Positions 20,363 through 57,084 of a stretch of 64,000 nucleotides of DNA are shown in pieces. This DNA is from Bacillota bacterium (GTDB lineage: Bacteria; Bacillota; TC1), in assembly GCA_024635925.1 (NCBI GenBank), contig JAGXHY010000008.1, positions 62,001-126,000 of the forward strand. The letters run 5' to 3'. The notes under the pieces are model-generated. The model was not told the origin of the DNA. It searched no databases and saw only the letters and a program-made list of their open reading frames with translations. Each line of letters begins with the position of its first letter. Position 1 is the stretch's first letter. The position numbers were made by a program, and so were the translations under genes.

Positions 20363-23300
20363 ATGAAAGCTAAATGGTTCGATTTTATTAATCGATTAAA
20401 TATTGAAGAAAAATTAAAAAATATACTAATATCTAGCGAGAATATTGAGTCCCTAGTCAATCAAGATAAGAAAAAACTAGATATATTTTTAGAATCAAAA
20501 GAATTTATTGATTTAGAAGATATAATAATTGCTGAAAAAGCTATCAGTTCTTTTTTTAATCCATATGATGTAAGGCTCTTGCCTTGCTATGTTAATTTTA
20601 GCAATATAGATTTTCCAGGTTTAGTAAAATATTTAAATTTCAGACTTACTAATGAACTACCACTTTTTCCAATAGACTCTTTAAGATACTGTTTTGAAAG
20701 TTGTGCTATAGAAATTAAATTACCTTCAGATTTTCATTCAGAAGTATATAGTAAAAAAGGTATTGATAATATTATTAAAATATTGCTTGCAAAAACGATT
20801 CAGAATAAAGACCTTGTTAAATTAAATGTTATAATAAATGATTCTTACTCAACAAGATTAAAAGATATTAAAAATAGGACACAAGAAGTTGTAGACAAAA
20901 ACAAAATTGATATCTTGAATAAATCAATTAAAGTTTGTAATGAAAAAGTTAAAGTTAAAGTTAAAGTTAAAAGGGTAACCAAAGAAAAAGACAGCAACAT
21001 TATTTTAGGTTCTTTGATTACAGAAACAATAATACCTGCAGAAGCAAAAACGGAAACTATTAAAAGTATTTCGATGTATGGGAAAATTAAGAATCTCGAG
21101 ATTAGAAATATAAATAAAGGTAAGTTACTTATTTCTTTTAATCTTATATGGAAAAAATCTGGTATACCATGTAAAATATTTATGAAAAAAAATAGCGATC
21201 AACCTTTATTAGAAAATGGAATAATAGTTTCAGTTAGAGGTAAGCTAGAACATGATTCATATAAACATGATTTTGTTTTAGGAATACGAGATATAAATAA
21301 ATATGTAATATCAAGGCCTGAAGATTGTTCTGATATCAAACGTGTTGAATTACATCTTCACACAAAAATGAGTTCATTAGATGCTAATATAGATTTAAAG
21401 GATTTAATAAAAAGTATGGAAGCTATGGGACATGATGCAGTAGCTATAACTGATCATGGTGGAGTTCAAACATTCCCTGAAGCTTATGAACTAACAAAAG
21501 ATAAAGATATTAAAGTTATCTTTGGTGTTGAAGGTTATTTATTTGATGACAAAATAAATAAAGATTTTAAAGGGAAAACCAATCACGTAATAATTTTAGT
21601 TGAAAATCAAATAGGGCTCAAAAATTTATATAAATTAATTAGTGAATCACATTTAAATTATTTTTATAGGAAACCAAGAATACCCAAAAGTTTATTATCA
21701 AAACTCAGAGAAGGCTTAATAATCGGAAGTGCATGCGAAGCGGGAGAAGTATTTAGAGGAATTGTAAATAAACTTGATTATGATAATATGAAAGAAATAG
21801 TATCATTTTATGATTATTTAGAAATACAACCAATTTCAAATAATGAATATATGATAAGAAATGGTATAGTCCAAACAAAAAATGATTTAATTGCTTTTAA
21901 TAATGAAATAATAAAATGGGGAGAAGTTTCCAACAAACCAGTAATTGCAACCGGAGATGTTCATTTTCTTAATAAAGAGGATAGTATTTATCGTGCGATC
22001 CTTATGAAAAGTAAAGGTTTTACTGATGTTATTCAACCAGAATTATATTATAGAACTACAGAAGAAATGTTGTCTGAATTTAGTTATTTAAGTAAAGAAA
22101 AAGCATATGAGATAGTAGTAGTAAATCCAAGAATTATTACAGATAAAGTTGATAAATTAAGACCGGTTCCAGTTGGCTTATTTACACCTAAAATTGATGG
22201 GGCTGAAGAACAGGTAAAAAGTATAACTTATGAAACCGCACATAACATTTATGGTAAACTACTACCAGAAATAGTAGAGAAAAGAATTAAGAAAGAATTA
22301 AATTCAATAATTAATCATGGATTTGCTGTATTATATTTAATTGCACATAAATTGGTGAAAAAGTCTAATGAAGATGGTTATGTAGTTGGTTCAAGGGGTT
22401 CTGTTGGATCCTCATTTGTAGCAACATTAATGGAAATAACAGAAGTTAATCCTTTGACACCACATTATATTTGTCCTTCATGTTGTCATAGCGAATTTAT
22501 TTTTGAACATTATGATTGTGGTATAGAATTACCCGAAAAAAACTGTCCAATCTGTAAAACTGATATGAGAAAAGATGGATTCAATATACCTTTTGAAACA
22601 TTTTTAGGTATAGATGGTGATAAAATTCCAGATATTGATTTAAATTTCTCTGGTGAATATCAAGGAAAAATACATAAATATACAGAAGAACTTTTTGGAA
22701 AAGGTAATGTTTTTAAAGCTGGTACTATTAGTACAGTAGCAGAAAAAACAGCAGTCGGTTATGTTAGAAAATATTTTGAAGAAGAAAATATAGGTAATCC
22801 AAGAGAAATTGAATTAATTTCATTAGCTTCAGGATGTGTAGGAGTAAAAAGAACATCAGGTCAACATCCTGGTGGTCTTGTAATAGTGCCTGAGAATGTT
22901 GATATACATGATTTTACACCAGTACAACGTCCAGCTGATGATGTTAATTCTGAAATAACAACAACACATTTTGATTATCACTCCATAGATAGTTGTCTTG
23001 TTAAGTTAGACTTATTAGGACATGATGATCCTACTATGATAAAATACTTAGAAGAACTAACAGGAGTTAAAGCAGAAGAGATACCACTAGATGATAAAGA
23101 TACAATATCTCTTTTTAGATCTAACAAAAAGTTAAACTTAAATGAAGATTTTGTAGAAACTGGTAGTTTGGGATTACCAGAATTTGGAACAAGTTTTGTT
23201 AGAAAAATGTTAGTAGATACAAAACCGAAAGTTTTTTCCGATTTAATTAGAATTAGTGGGTTTTCCCATGGTACAGATGTCTGGCTCAATAATGCAAAAG

Positions 23301-24043
23301 ATTTAATATTGAGTGGAAAGGTTAAGTTAAAAGAAGCTATTTCTACAAGAGATGATATTATGATATATTTATTAAGTATGGGTTTAGAAGATAAGATAGC
23401 ATTTAGAATAATGGAGGATGTAAGAAAAGGAAAAAAACTAAAACCAGAATATGAGAATCAAATGAGAGAAAATAAGGTTCCTCAATGGTATATAGATTCT
23501 TGTAATACAATTTCTTATATGTTTCCTAAAGCTCATGCTACTGCATATGTGATTATGGCTTTTCGACTTGGTTATTTTAAAATCAATTATAAAAAGGCAT
23601 TTTATGCTAGCTACTTTAGCGTTAGAGGGAATTCCTTTGACTATAATATTTTTAAAGACCAAAAAACTGTAAAAATTAATTTAGATAGACTGAAGACAAC
23701 AAATATATTAAATGCTAGAGAAAAAGAATTAAAAAATATACTAGAAATTGGTTATGAAATGTATTTGAGAAACATAAAATTCACACCTATTAACCTCTAT
23801 GAATCAAGGGCTAAAAGATTTATACTTGATTCTGAAGGTATTGTACCACCTTTTTCTTCTATACCTGGTTTAGGAGAAAAGGTAGCAGATAATATAATAA
23901 GAGAAAGATTAATAGGAGCTTTCTTATCAATAGAAGATTTACAAAGAAGATGTAAAATAAACAACACATTAGTGGAAGAAATGAAGAAGTTGGGAATACT
24001 AAGTGGGTTAGTACAAAGTGCTCAACTATCTTTATTTGATTAA
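20363..24043 (+). CDS. polC: DNA polymerase III alpha subunit PolC, lacking the 3'-5' exonuclease domain
   Basis: Replicative polymerase of low-GC Gram-positives. In order: N-terminal domain, a Lys/Val-rich linker (residues ~195-204), an OB domain (to ~325), the PHP domain (HLHTKMSS, ITDHGG), then the polymerase. Polymerase motifs GSRGSVGSSFVA, the zinc cysteines CPSCCHSEF/CPICKTD, PDIDLNFSGEYQ with two catalytic Asp, SGQHPGGLVIVP and MFPKAHATAYV are intact. Usual PolC is about 1,430 residues; this one has 1,226. The difference maps to one place: GVEGYLFDD (~387) is followed after some 15 residues by HVIILVENQ, where the exonuclease with its DVETTG motif is normally inserted. The deletion is in frame and flanks are well conserved. 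Confidence 0.95.
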   Translation: MKAKWFDFINRLNIEEKLKNILISSENIESLVNQDKKKLDIFLESKEFIDLEDIIIAEKAISSFFNPYDVRLLPCYVNFSNIDFPGLVKYLNFRLTNELPLFPIDSLRYCFESCAIEIKLPSDFHSEVYSKKGIDNIIKILLAKTIQNKDLVKLNVIINDSYSTRLKDIKNRTQEVVDKNKIDILNKSIKVCNEKVKVKVKVKRVTKEKDSNIILGSLITETIIPAEAKTETIKSISMYGKIKNLEIRNINKGKLLISFNLIWKKSGIPCKIFMKKNSDQPLLENGIIVSVRGKLEHDSYKHDFVLGIRDINKYVISRPEDCSDIKRVELHLHTKMSSLDANIDLKDLIKSMEAMGHDAVAITDHGGVQTFPEAYELTKDKDIKVIFGVEGYLFDDKINKDFKGKTNHVIILVENQIGLKNLYKLISESHLNYFYRKPRIPKSLLSKLREGLIIGSACEAGEVFRGIVNKLDYDNMKEIVSFYDYLEIQPISNNEYMIRNGIVQTKNDLIAFNNEIIKWGEVSNKPVIATGDVHFLNKEDSIYRAILMKSKGFTDVIQPELYYRTTEEMLSEFSYLSKEKAYEIVVVNPRIITDKVDKLRPVPVGLFTPKIDGAEEQVKSITYETAHNIYGKLLPEIVEKRIKKELNSIINHGFAVLYLIAHKLVKKSNEDGYVVGSRGSVGSSFVATLMEITEVNPLTPHYICPSCCHSEFIFEHYDCGIELPEKNCPICKTDMRKDGFNIPFETFLGIDGDKIPDIDLNFSGEYQGKIHKYTEELFGKGNVFKAGTISTVAEKTAVGYVRKYFEEENIGNPREIELISLASGCVGVKRTSGQHPGGLVIVPENVDIHDFTPVQRPADDVNSEITTTHFDYHSIDSCLVKLDLLGHDDPTMIKYLEELTGVKAEEIPLDDKDTISLFRSNKKLNLNEDFVETGSLGLPEFGTSFVRKMLVDTKPKVFSDLIRISGFSHGTDVWLNNAKDLILSGKVKLKEAISTRDDIMIYLLSMGLEDKIAFRIMEDVRKGKKLKPEYENQMRENKVPQWYIDSCNTISYMFPKAHATAYVIMAFRLGYFKINYKKAFYASYFSVRGNSFDYNIFKDQKTVKINLDRLKTTNILNAREKELKNILEIGYEMYLRNIKFTPINLYESRAKRFILDSEGIVPPFSSIPGLGEKVADNIIRERLIGAFLSIEDLQRRCKINNTLVEEMKKLGILSGLVQSAQLSLFD
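20945..20968 (+). repeat. (AAAGTT)4 hexamer repeat in polC
   Basis: Four perfect copies of AAAGTT followed by AAA encode alternating Lys-Val in the linker between the N-terminal and OB domains of PolC. A change in copy number would alter linker length without shifting the frame. Confidence 0.9.
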
Positions 24044-52330: not shown

Positions 52331-54757
52331 TTGAAAAAAAAAGTTGAGTTGTTAGCACCAGCCGGTGGATTAGAACAACTAAAAGTAGCTATATATAATG
52401 GTGCAGATGCTGTATATTTTGGAGGAGAAAAATTTTCTGCTAGGGCAAATGCTACAAATTTTAATAAAGATGAAATAATCATTGCAAGAAGACTAACAAA
52501 AAAGCATAATGTCAAACTATATTGTGCTATAAATACTGTTATTTTTAATAATGAGTTAGAAGAAGTTATTAACTATATAGCATTTTTACATAAAGTTGGA
52601 ATTGATGCTCTAATTATACAAGATGTAGGTTTAATAAAGTTAACAAAAGAACATTTTCCAGAGATGGAAATTCATAGTAGTACACAATTATCAATTCAAA
52701 ATAGTTTCGGTTTAGAATTCTTAAAGAATCTCAATGTGAAAAGAGCTGTAATTCCAAGAGAGTCATCATTAAAAGATATTTTAAAACTTAAAAATTCTGG
52801 AATTGAACTTGAAGCCTTTGTTCATGGCGCTATTTGCATCTGCTTTTCAGGGCAATGTCTAATGAGTAGTATGATAGGTGGAAGAAGTGGTAATAGAGGT
52901 GCTTGTGCTCAACCATGTAGATTAAAATATAGCCTAATAGACTATAAGTCTAAAAAAATTATTTGCGAAAATGCTTCTTATTTAAGTCCCAAAGACATGA
53001 TGCTTATAAATTCAATTGATAAACTAATAGAAGCTGGAGTAAAATCTTTTAAAATTGAAGGAAGAATGAAGACCCCAGAATATGTTGCTACTATTGTAAA
53101 ATATTATAGAAAAGCAATTGATAAAGCCCTTGCTAATGAATCATATAATTTATCTCAAGAAGAAAATAATGAAATTGCCCAGGTTTTTAGCAGAGATTTT
53201 ACAGATTTATATTTATATGGTAAAAGTGGTAAAGAAATGATGAATGTTAATAAACCTAACAATAGAGGAGTTTTAGTTGGTAGAGTACAAAATTTTAAGG
53301 ATGGAAAAGTATCTGTCCTATTAAAAAATACACTGCAAATTGGTGATAAAGTTTCATTTTGGACTACTGTTGAAGGAAGAGTGAATATTAGTATTGACAG
53401 AATAAACAAAGATGGTTTTCATGTTGAATCAGCAGAAGCTAAGGATATTGTTATTTTAGATATTCCTAAAAGAGTAAATAAAGATGACCGTGTTTTTAAA
53501 ACAGAATCAGCTTTAAATAAAAGTATCATTAAAAATCAACTTAATAGCTTAAATCAGGATGAAAAAATTATGTTAAAAATTAAAATAGAAGGACAAGTTG
53601 GAGATCATCTTACCATAGAATTTATTGATGAGGATGGATATAAAAGTACAGTTGTTTCTGATATTATTTTGGAGAAAGCTTTGAAACATTCCTTGAATGA
53701 GAATACTTTACGTTCACAAATTCGTTTAGGTGATACACAGTATCGTTTGGAGAAAATTGATATGAATGTGGGTAATATTATGGTTCCCAAAAGCATCTTG
53801 AATAATATGAGAAGAGAAGGAATAGAAAGCTTAATAGAACAAAGAGTTAAAAATAATAAATTAGATTATATAAAAATTAATATTAATGATGATAATAAAT
53901 TAAATAATAATAATGAAAATAAAATTGGAGTAATTGTAGAAAACATTGATAAAATCAAGGCTCTTTTAATTAAAGATATAAATTATATATACTATCCTTT
54001 AATAAATTTCAAACATATTGGTAGTGAAGCAATAGATTTTCTAAACTTTATTAAAACATTAAATGAAGAGCAATTGAACAAATTAGTATTAGATTTACCG
54101 CGCTTTATCAGAGAAGATGACTTACCATTTATACTAAGCCAAATTGAAATGATGAAACCATATATAAAAAAGTTTAGAGCAAATACAGCTGACCAGATTA
54201 TCATGTTAAAAAGACTTGGTATAATAAGTGTTCATGGAACTTCAGGATTAAATGTTGTCAATAGTGTTGCTTTTGATTATTATAAAAATAACATAGGATT
54301 ATGTGAATTAGAATTATCAAAGGAATTAAATATATCACAATTATATGATTTAAATAAAGAAGCTCAATTAACAATCTATGGTATTACTGAATTAATGGTG
54401 ATGGAGCATTGCATAATTGGTTCAAACATTGAGCCTAAAAAATGTAATGACGCAATTTATGCTTTAAAGGATCGAATAAATATCGAATTTCCAATACTAG
54501 TAGATTCACTGGGTAAAAACCATATAATTAACAGTAGAATTCTATTGATAATAGATGAATTAAGGATAATAAAAGAGATGGGATATAATAACTTTTTATT
54601 AAACGCTATTATGACAGATGAAGATATTATGAAGGATATTATTGATATCTATATTTCTGTTATAAAATATAATGAAAATATTGCAAATGTTAAAAATGAA
54701 ATTTTTAGTCTAGTATCGAATTTCACTAAAGGTCATTATAATAGGGGTATAATTTAA
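52331..54757 (+). CDS. peptidase U32 family protein (large form)
   Basis: 808 residues. The N-terminal half is the U32 TIM-barrel domain: LLAPAGGLEQL at the start, a beta strand ending EAFVHGAIC, and the CFSGQCLMSS, GGRSGNRGACAQPC cysteine block around residues 175-198. The C-terminal half fits the DUF3656-containing long subclass. Relatives include RlhA (23S rRNA C2501 hydroxylation) and collagenase-like proteins; the cysteines suggest Fe-S binding and RNA modification rather than proteolysis. TTG start, GGAGG 7 bases upstream. It overlaps mutS2 by one base, a conserved U32-mutS2 neighbourhood. Confidence 0.9.
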   Translation: MKKKVELLAPAGGLEQLKVAIYNGADAVYFGGEKFSARANATNFNKDEIIIARRLTKKHNVKLYCAINTVIFNNELEEVINYIAFLHKVGIDALIIQDVGLIKLTKEHFPEMEIHSSTQLSIQNSFGLEFLKNLNVKRAVIPRESSLKDILKLKNSGIELEAFVHGAICICFSGQCLMSSMIGGRSGNRGACAQPCRLKYSLIDYKSKKIICENASYLSPKDMMLINSIDKLIEAGVKSFKIEGRMKTPEYVATIVKYYRKAIDKALANESYNLSQEENNEIAQVFSRDFTDLYLYGKSGKEMMNVNKPNNRGVLVGRVQNFKDGKVSVLLKNTLQIGDKVSFWTTVEGRVNISIDRINKDGFHVESAEAKDIVILDIPKRVNKDDRVFKTESALNKSIIKNQLNSLNQDEKIMLKIKIEGQVGDHLTIEFIDEDGYKSTVVSDIILEKALKHSLNENTLRSQIRLGDTQYRLEKIDMNVGNIMVPKSILNNMRREGIESLIEQRVKNNKLDYIKININDDNKLNNNNENKIGVIVENIDKIKALLIKDINYIYYPLINFKHIGSEAIDFLNFIKTLNEEQLNKLVLDLPRFIREDDLPFILSQIEMMKPYIKKFRANTADQIIMLKRLGIISVHGTSGLNVVNSVAFDYYKNNIGLCELELSKELNISQLYDLNKEAQLTIYGITELMVMEHCIIGSNIEPKKCNDAIYALKDRINIEFPILVDSLGKNHIINSRILLIIDELRIIKEMGYNNFLLNAIMTDEDIMKDIIDIYISVIKYNENIANVKNEIFSLVSNFTKGHYNRGII

Positions 54758-57084
54758 TGGTTAAAGAGAAAACAATTAAGAAGTTAGAATTAAATGGGAT
54801 AAGGGAACTTTGTTTAAAATTTGCTACTCATCCATTAAGTAAAAAAATGGTAATGAAACAAGAGTTAGCTGAAAGTTTTAACAAAGCTGAAGATCGTTTA
54901 TATGAAACGAATTCTGCCTTACAATTACTTAGGACAAAACCAGATATTCCTAGTGGAACACTACCTGATATGGAAGGTTCAATTGAAAAAATAGTGAATG
55001 AAATTCAACTTAATCCTAAAGACTTAGTAGATATATTATTTATGTTAAATACTTCAAGAGATATTTTAAATTATTTCAAAGGGGCTATAGAAAATCCTTT
55101 ATTTAATAGATTGTTAAATAATTTAAGTGATTTAAAATATTTAAGAGAATATATAAATACCATTATTGATGAGAATGGTGTTATTAAAGATGATGCTAGT
55201 GAAGATTTATTTAGTATTAGAAGAAAAATTAAAAGTAAAATGAAAGAAATAAAAAAACAACTTGATCATATACTAAAACGTGTTTCTTCAGAAAAATATT
55301 TACAAGAAAAAGTTGTAGTTAAAAGAGGTGATAGGTATTGTTTAAGTGTAAAAAAAGAATTTGCATATAAAATACCTGGAGTTATTGAAGATACTTCTGC
55401 AAGTGGTAGTACAGTATTTATTGAACCTTTAGAAATTGGTAATATAAGAGGTGAATTAAATATCTTAAAAAAAACGGAATATGAAGAATTAGATAAAATA
55501 ATGAGGAATATATCAGCAACTTTACATGTAGAAAAGATTAATATTTTACTAATATATGAAACATTAGGCTATTATAACTTTTATATTGCAAAAGCATTAT
55601 TTACAAAAAGCATTAAGGGTTTTGTACCTGAAATTAATGAAGGAGGAATTATTAAATTACGTAGTGCTAGACATCCTTTATTATTCGGGGAGGTTATTGC
55701 TAACGATTTATTTTTAGGAGAGGGTTATAATAATTTAATAATAAGTGGTCCTAATACAGGTGGAAAAACTGTAATATTAAAGATGGTAGGTCTTTTTGCT
55801 CTAATGATTTCATTAGGTTATGGTATACCTGCTAATGAAGGTTCAAAAATGTCATATTTTAACAAAGTATTAGCAGATATAGGTGATGAGCAAAGTATTG
55901 AAAACTCACTATCAACATTTTCTGGACACTTATATAATATTAAAGAAATGTTAGATTTAGCAGATGCTAAAACATTGCTGTTATTTGATGAATTAGGTAA
56001 TGGCACAGATCCTAAAGAAGGTAGTAGTTTAGCTATGGCAATTTTAACTGATTTAAATAGAAAAGGTTGTCATAGTATTACCACTACTCATTATGGAGAA
56101 TTAAAGGTTTTTGCTTATAATACACCTGGATTTTCTAATGCATCAATGGCTTTTGATGTTAGAACTCTAGAACCAACCTATAAACTCATTATAGGAACTC
56201 CTGGTTCAAGTTTAGGGTTAGAAGTTGCAAAAAGATGTGGACTTAAAGAGGAAATAATTATTAAATCAAAATCTTTAATTGATAGTAGTGAATTAGAAAC
56301 TAGTCAATTAATTCAATCATTAGAAGAAGAAAGAAGTTTAATGAATGAAAAAATTATAAGTTTAGAAAAGGAAAAAAATGATTTAATAAAATTAAGGTTA
56401 GAACTAGAAATGGAAGAAAAAGAATTAAAGGATAAAAACCGAAAATCTATAAATAAAGATTTAGAAAGATCTCGTGATGTATTAACAAATCTAAAAAGAG
56501 AAAGTGAAGCTATAATCAAAGAACTTAAAAAATTAAAGTTAAATAATCCAGAAATAGCTAATAAAGCTAGAAAGAATATTAAAGTCTTAGAAGAAGGTCT
56601 TACCGAAATAAAAGTTGATAATAAAAAAAGCGGTACAAAGTCATTACAGATAGGTCAATCAGTCAAGGTAATTTCTCTAGATAAGGCTGGAGAAGTCTTT
56701 GAGGCAAACGACTCTAAAGGCCTTGCATTAATAAAAATTGGTATAATGAAAATAAGCTTACCATATAGTGACTTAATAGTTACAGAAACGAATACAAATG
56801 AAGAAACATATACAATTATGAAAGACGTTAGCAAGGCAAATGTCCCAATGGAAATAGATTTGAGAGGGCTAACAGTTGATGAATGTCTTTATAAATTAGA
56901 TAAATATCTAGATCAAGCGGTTTTAAGCAAATATCCGTATATTAGAATTATTCATGGTATGGGAACAGGCGCTCTTAAAAAAGCTATCTGGGAATATTTA
57001 CAAAACTTAAGATTTATTAAAAGTTTTCGTTATGGTGATGCCAGTGAAGGCAGCATTGGAGCTACAGTAGTTTATTTAAAATAA
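54757..57084 (+). CDS. mutS2: MutS2 endonuclease/ribosome rescue ATPase
   Basis: 775 residues, family-normal. MutS core with Walker A GPNTGGKT, Walker B LLFDELGNGTDP and TTTHYGELK; a coiled-coil clamp of about 110 residues; a C-terminal Smr domain starting IDLRGLTVDE with IIHGMGTGALKKAI. MutS2 lacks the mismatch-recognition domain and is linked to recombination control and, in B. subtilis, to splitting collided ribosomes. One-base overlap with the U32 gene. Confidence 0.96.
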   Translation: MVKEKTIKKLELNGIRELCLKFATHPLSKKMVMKQELAESFNKAEDRLYETNSALQLLRTKPDIPSGTLPDMEGSIEKIVNEIQLNPKDLVDILFMLNTSRDILNYFKGAIENPLFNRLLNNLSDLKYLREYINTIIDENGVIKDDASEDLFSIRRKIKSKMKEIKKQLDHILKRVSSEKYLQEKVVVKRGDRYCLSVKKEFAYKIPGVIEDTSASGSTVFIEPLEIGNIRGELNILKKTEYEELDKIMRNISATLHVEKINILLIYETLGYYNFYIAKALFTKSIKGFVPEINEGGIIKLRSARHPLLFGEVIANDLFLGEGYNNLIISGPNTGGKTVILKMVGLFALMISLGYGIPANEGSKMSYFNKVLADIGDEQSIENSLSTFSGHLYNIKEMLDLADAKTLLLFDELGNGTDPKEGSSLAMAILTDLNRKGCHSITTTHYGELKVFAYNTPGFSNASMAFDVRTLEPTYKLIIGTPGSSLGLEVAKRCGLKEEIIIKSKSLIDSSELETSQLIQSLEEERSLMNEKIISLEKEKNDLIKLRLELEMEEKELKDKNRKSINKDLERSRDVLTNLKRESEAIIKELKKLKLNNPEIANKARKNIKVLEEGLTEIKVDNKKSGTKSLQIGQSVKVISLDKAGEVFEANDSKGLALIKIGIMKISLPYSDLIVTETNTNEETYTIMKDVSKANVPMEIDLRGLTVDECLYKLDKYLDQAVLSKYPYIRIIHGMGTGALKKAIWEYLQNLRFIKSFRYGDASEGSIGATVVYLK

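Follow-up and report, generated by a model that had tools for sequence, protein, structure and literature searches.

A PolC-type replicative polymerase without its DEDDh exonuclease and the candidate role of its PHP domain in proofreading

In canonical PolC (that of B. subtilis, S. aureus [PDB 9qpc], or G. kaustophilus [PDB 3f2b]), a DEDDh exonuclease sits in the loop of the PHP domain. The window analyzed here, a stretch of 64,000 nucleotides from a Bacillota bacterium, encodes a PolC that shares the domain order of these enzymes, from the N-terminal domain (NTD) to the clamp motif, but has no exonuclease in this loop, which raises the question of how its errors are removed. A sequence-only reading of this DNA had rightly listed a DnaQ-like subunit acting in trans, the PHP domain, and tolerance of errors as options, without choosing among them; the evidence described below favors proofreading by the PHP domain.

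The 1,226-residue product of the ORF is a PolC-type DNA polymerase III alpha, scoring above the cut-offs of both NCBIfam NF001688 (PolC-type Pol III; 1432.6 bits, cut-off 873) and TIGR01405 (1305 bits, cut-off 1043). Pfam recognizes the PHP, DNA_pol3_alpha, finger, and HHH domains, and the hallmarks of the PolC type are all present, namely an OB domain N-terminal to PHP, the zinc cysteines, the catalytic aspartates, and a C-terminal clamp motif (Table 1). The overall order is NTD, OB, PHP, polymerase core, HhH, and clamp motif. The polymerase, PHP, OB, and zinc motifs had been described as intact, and the PDIDLN motif, the four cysteines, the nine PHP ligands, and the OB domain were indeed all found. 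The protein had also been called the main replicase; its identity as PolC stands, whereas a main role is not established, because a DnaE1 with an intact PHP domain is encoded as well. The AlphaFold model of residues 1–240 has a mean pLDDT of 81, and the best, weak Foldseek matches of the N-terminal model, none of them at E ≤ 0.001, are NusA-type KH domains, in agreement with the description of the PolC NTD as KH-like (PMC3919608). The OB–PHP model has a pLDDT of 91.6, and its best PDB match is PolC 3f2b (E = 4.3e-41). The gene is preceded by genes for a pyrH-like kinase, frr, uppS, cdsA, dxr, an M50 protease, ispG, and proS, and followed by genes for a CBS protein and malic enzyme. A promoter scan at the polC locus did no better than shuffles, and no second PolC was found in the window's genome.

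Table 1. Features of the polC locus and of the solo DEDDh gene. Positions are those of the window except in the last row.
Feature	Position	Strand	Basis
polC, without DEDDh exonuclease insert	20363..24043	+	ORF; NF001688 and TIGR01405; RNase_T absent
PolC N-terminal domain, residues 1–235, poorly conserved, without exonuclease fold	20363..21067	+	AlphaFold, Foldseek
OB domain, residues 236–320 (approximate)	21068..21322	+	collinear with 3f2b; strand pattern in model
PHP part 1: ligands H331, H333, D340, H365, E390	21338..21556	+	alignment, ligand read-out
Junction linker, residues 399–407, at canonical exonuclease site (~200 residues)	21557..21583	+	alignments
PHP part 2: ligands H408, C458, D532, H534	21584..22057	+	alignment; model vs 3f2b
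D532 codon	21956..21958	+	alignments to 3f2b and 7pu7 (DnaE1); Bacilli survey
Zinc-type cysteines C704, C707, C728, C731	22472..22555	+	sequence
Polymerase catalytic motif PDIDLN, residues 756–761	22628..22645	+	sequence; Pfam DNA_pol3_alpha
Beta-clamp binding motif QLSLF, residues 1221–1225	24023..24037	+	sequence; consensus in PMC3919608
Solo DEDDh protein, 178 aa	G000:C1, L001 1435-1971	-	PF00929, 76 bits

Pfam detects no RNase_T domain in the PolC ORF, even at E ≤ 1, and neither D[ILVF]ET nor HNxx[FY]D occurs anywhere in the protein. PHP ligands 5 (Glu390) and 6 (His408) are separated by 17 residues, where canonical PolC has approximately 200 more. The alignment with S. aureus PolC is split, query residues 199–399 matching residues 227–434 and query residue 404 onward matching residue 637 onward; chain residues 435–636 of 9qpc are skipped, meaning that about 200 residues are absent from the query. 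With the G. kaustophilus construct 3f2b, the alignment is collinear and unbroken. An exonuclease hidden in the NTD was ruled out by the AlphaFold model and Foldseek. The protein thus lacks the PHP-inserted DEDDh exonuclease of a canonical PolC and corresponds to the “exo-less” PolC of PMC3919608, in which the Exo insertion is absent and DnaE1 is the partner. We conclude, as the sequence-only reading had claimed, that the DEDDh exonuclease is truly absent from this PolC, being found neither at its usual site nor elsewhere in the protein, and that a short linker closes the PHP loop.

All nine PHP ligands (HHDHEHCDH) are intact in the window's PolC, which fits the motif HHDHEH[C/H]DH described for the PHP exonuclease of C-family polymerases (PMC12926913). 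The same nine trinuclear-zinc ligands occur in M. tuberculosis DnaE1, which differs in being a DnaE1 and not a PolC, in the long loop (29 residues) next to its site, and in that PHP exonuclease activity has been proven for it (PMC5636811). In the DnaE1 of the window's genome, the residue matching D532 lines up with Asp226 of M. tuberculosis DnaE1 (7pu7), and the D226N mutation abolishes PHP exonuclease activity in the M. tuberculosis enzyme (PMC5636811). G. kaustophilus PolC has Asn at the position of D532; this enzyme, with one PHP ligand changed, has no PHP exonuclease (PMC5636811). The matching Asp-to-Asn change arises naturally in Bacilli PolCs (“Bacilli” being the class of G030, so identified as one member is near-identical to Geobacillus PolC), where the PHP site is degraded in 44 of 70 cases, 43 of them by D-to-N at the D532 position and one by loss of three ligands. 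The latter is the exo-bearing polC of G101 (L258), whose PHP site reads HHDHTEADH.

In the protein-based sample, the nine-ligand site is intact in 40 of 40 exo-less PolCs. Degraded sites amount to 0/40 among exo-less and 46/88 among exo-bearing PolCs (Fisher p = 2e-10), a test that is confounded with phylogeny. All decay lies in Bacilli; since exo-bearing PolCs outside Bacilli are intact as well (16/16, protein-based sample), an intact PHP site does not separate the two forms there. A further 46 named exo-less loci, all with intact PHP, were left out of the statistic, the scan patterns having required the C458 and D532 motifs. Stronger constraint on PHP in exo-less PolCs was not found, the PHP/polymerase divergence ratio being alike in both classes. 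Judged by its ligands, the PHP site appears to decay only where a DEDDh domain is present in the PolCs sampled.

Based on these data, the PHP domain most likely removes the replication errors of PolC in cis, with mismatch repair behind it, a reading to which we assign a probability of about 0.65. PHP would be a zinc-type 3′–5′ exonuclease working like that of M. tuberculosis DnaE1, and MutS/MutL would correct errors behind it; metal binding by PHP, catalysis in PolC, and proofreading in vivo are what we infer from sequence. In favor of this reading, the site is intact in every exo-less PolC of the sample while decay is confined to exo-bearing ones, and RNase_T is absent from 13 exo-less genomes that are at least 90% complete. 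Counting against it, a solo DEDDh protein is encoded once in the window's genome, and structural demands may be what preserves the intact PHP site.

The alternative that survives best, although we consider it unlikely, is that PolC does not proofread and that DnaE1 carries out bulk or error-correcting synthesis, with mismatch repair doing the rest. The genome encodes a DnaE1 with intact PHP ligands as well as intact MutS and MutL, and the division of labor in bacteria with both PolC and DnaE1 has been stated to be unknown (PMC3919608). Yet a PolC without proofreading should be free to lose its PHP site, so the constant integrity of this site in exo-less PolCs, set against its frequent degradation in Bacilli that have another proofreader, argues against such a division. 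Separately, a 775-residue ORF at positions 54757–57084 of the window, which overlaps a weak MutS-type match (G000:C20:117594-118391), probably encodes MutS2.

Improbable to a greater degree is proofreading of PolC in trans by a separate DnaQ-like DEDDh subunit, here the solo protein of Table 1. This protein consists of a full DEDDh domain and is the only RNase_T match in the genome, a similar protein of 179–181 residues occurs in two congeners, and its best NCBIfam match, PRK06195, is named epsilon-like, although the score is 147 bits against a cut-off of 373. The scores are also below the epsilon cut-offs of TIGR00573 (60/71.5 bits) and TIGR01406 (57/222.7 bits), and the gene lies far from polC. 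E. coli epsilon binds alpha through a tail beyond the exonuclease domain, whereas the solo protein stops right after this domain. Hence, the search for DnaQ-type exonucleases proposed earlier did yield one candidate, but one with neither an epsilon-family score nor an epsilon-like tail. The idea that the solo gene is an excised PolC exonuclease is disfavored, the PRK06195 score exceeding that against the PolC model (91 bits).

Across the sample, solo exonucleases are not enriched in exo-less genomes (21/40, compared with 11/18 exo-bearing genomes; p = 0.58), and independent pairs, of which there are only 3, reveal no trend. No RNase_T match was found in 15 of the 40 exo-less genomes; the 13 of these that are at least 90% complete include G005 (same family as the window's genome and its nearest finished member) and the single-contig G006, G023, and G029. 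Repeating the search permissively at E ≤ 10 added only weak, sub-cut-off matches. Within the order of the window's genome, G006, G007, and G008 have no RNase_T domain, and neither does G005 of its family. A trans subunit may operate in some species, but, given the RNase_T-free exo-less genomes and the lack of enrichment, a dedicated trans DnaQ is unlikely to be the general answer.

That the exonuclease-coding region was merely collapsed by an assembly or sequencing artifact is scarcely credible, because the same 10-residue linker and an open PolC frame occur in all 10 genomes of the order, and because the architecture is common to many named isolates; the nine relatives sharing the junction exclude the collapse that the sequence-only reading had wished to see checked, even without reads.

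In the phylum, 58 PolCs could be scored, 40 of them exo-less and 18 exo-bearing; counted by family, the numbers are 26/41 and 15/41. The insert between the anchors is 5–18 residues long in 39 of the 40 exo-less PolCs and 203–210 residues in exo-bearing ones. The exception is the polC of G075 (L076), where 77 residues occupy the exonuclease site; this insert is not recognized as an exonuclease and is either a remnant or a new linker. Named taxa with an exo-less PolC include Moorella thermoacetica, Selenomonas, Anaerovibrio, Anaerospora, Desulfosporosinus fructosivorans, Syntrophomonadaceae, and some Lachnospiraceae. None of the named loci found comes from the family of the window's genome, the best named match having approximately 52% identity.

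The exo-less form is neither rare nor new, and most of the families sampled outside Bacilli have it. In 2013, Timinskas et al. described it for 6% of PolCs, almost all from Clostridia and Negativicutes (PMC3919608), and the window's PolC shares with these proteins the PHP-containing PolC core, the absence of the Exo insertion, and a DnaE1 alongside, differing in nothing essential. It has also been described that Clostridia usually have an active PHP in both PolC and DnaE1, while the PHP of Bacilli is often inactive (PMC12926913). New here are a broader sample, the finding that many exo-less genomes have no RNase_T domain at all, and the one-sided decay of PHP. The sampling suggests that the exo-less form is much commoner outside Bacilli (26/41 families) than the 2013 figure. 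Exo-less PolCs provide a natural test of PHP proofreading, the rival DEDDh domain being already gone. PolC is a drug target, and inhibitor and fidelity results obtained with exo-bearing Bacilli enzymes may not transfer to exo-less bacteria.

In a tree of the PolC core from which the insert had been removed (58 rows), the trait needs at least seven changes, three of them forced by well-supported branches; a larger tree of 134 rows gave 11 changes (FastTree, less reliable). A single clade of all exo-bearing rows was rejected (AU p = 0.0008). Among exo-bearing PolCs, distances in the exonuclease and in the core correlate (Mantel r = 0.76), which is what a single acquisition of an insert that then travelled with the gene would predict. 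Since all full-length Bacilli PolCs sampled (100/100) keep the exonuclease length, repeated loss of the exonuclease would be the simplest reading of a tree that is unrooted and in which whole-gene transfer is possible. The residues that separate exo-less from exo-bearing PolCs are mostly junction or variable sites, with none among the nine ligands. A broader proposal, for which we see the odds as even, is that, across entire lineages of Clostridia and Negativicutes, PolC shed its DEDDh domain repeatedly, that in some genomes without any DEDDh protein the PHP of PolC (together with that of DnaE1) would be the sole replicative proofreader, and that loss would be tolerated only with an intact PHP.

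Of the 81 genomes sampled from the phylum, 20, most of them near-complete, gave no PolC match at E ≤ 1e-50 (G010, G017, G018, G019, and 16 others); these may replicate by DnaE alone. The assembly of Desulfosporosinus metallidurans (G082; L174/L183 and L176) has two PolC genes, one for an exo-less PolC of 1,254 residues and one for an exo-bearing PolC of 1,454 residues that is close to the PolC of G012, a state due to either transfer or contamination. Anaerovibrio lipolyticus (G086; L177, L182) has two exo-less PolC genes, encoding 1,322 and 1,277 residues and lying approximately 33 kb apart on one contig, together with a 729-residue PolC-like fragment.
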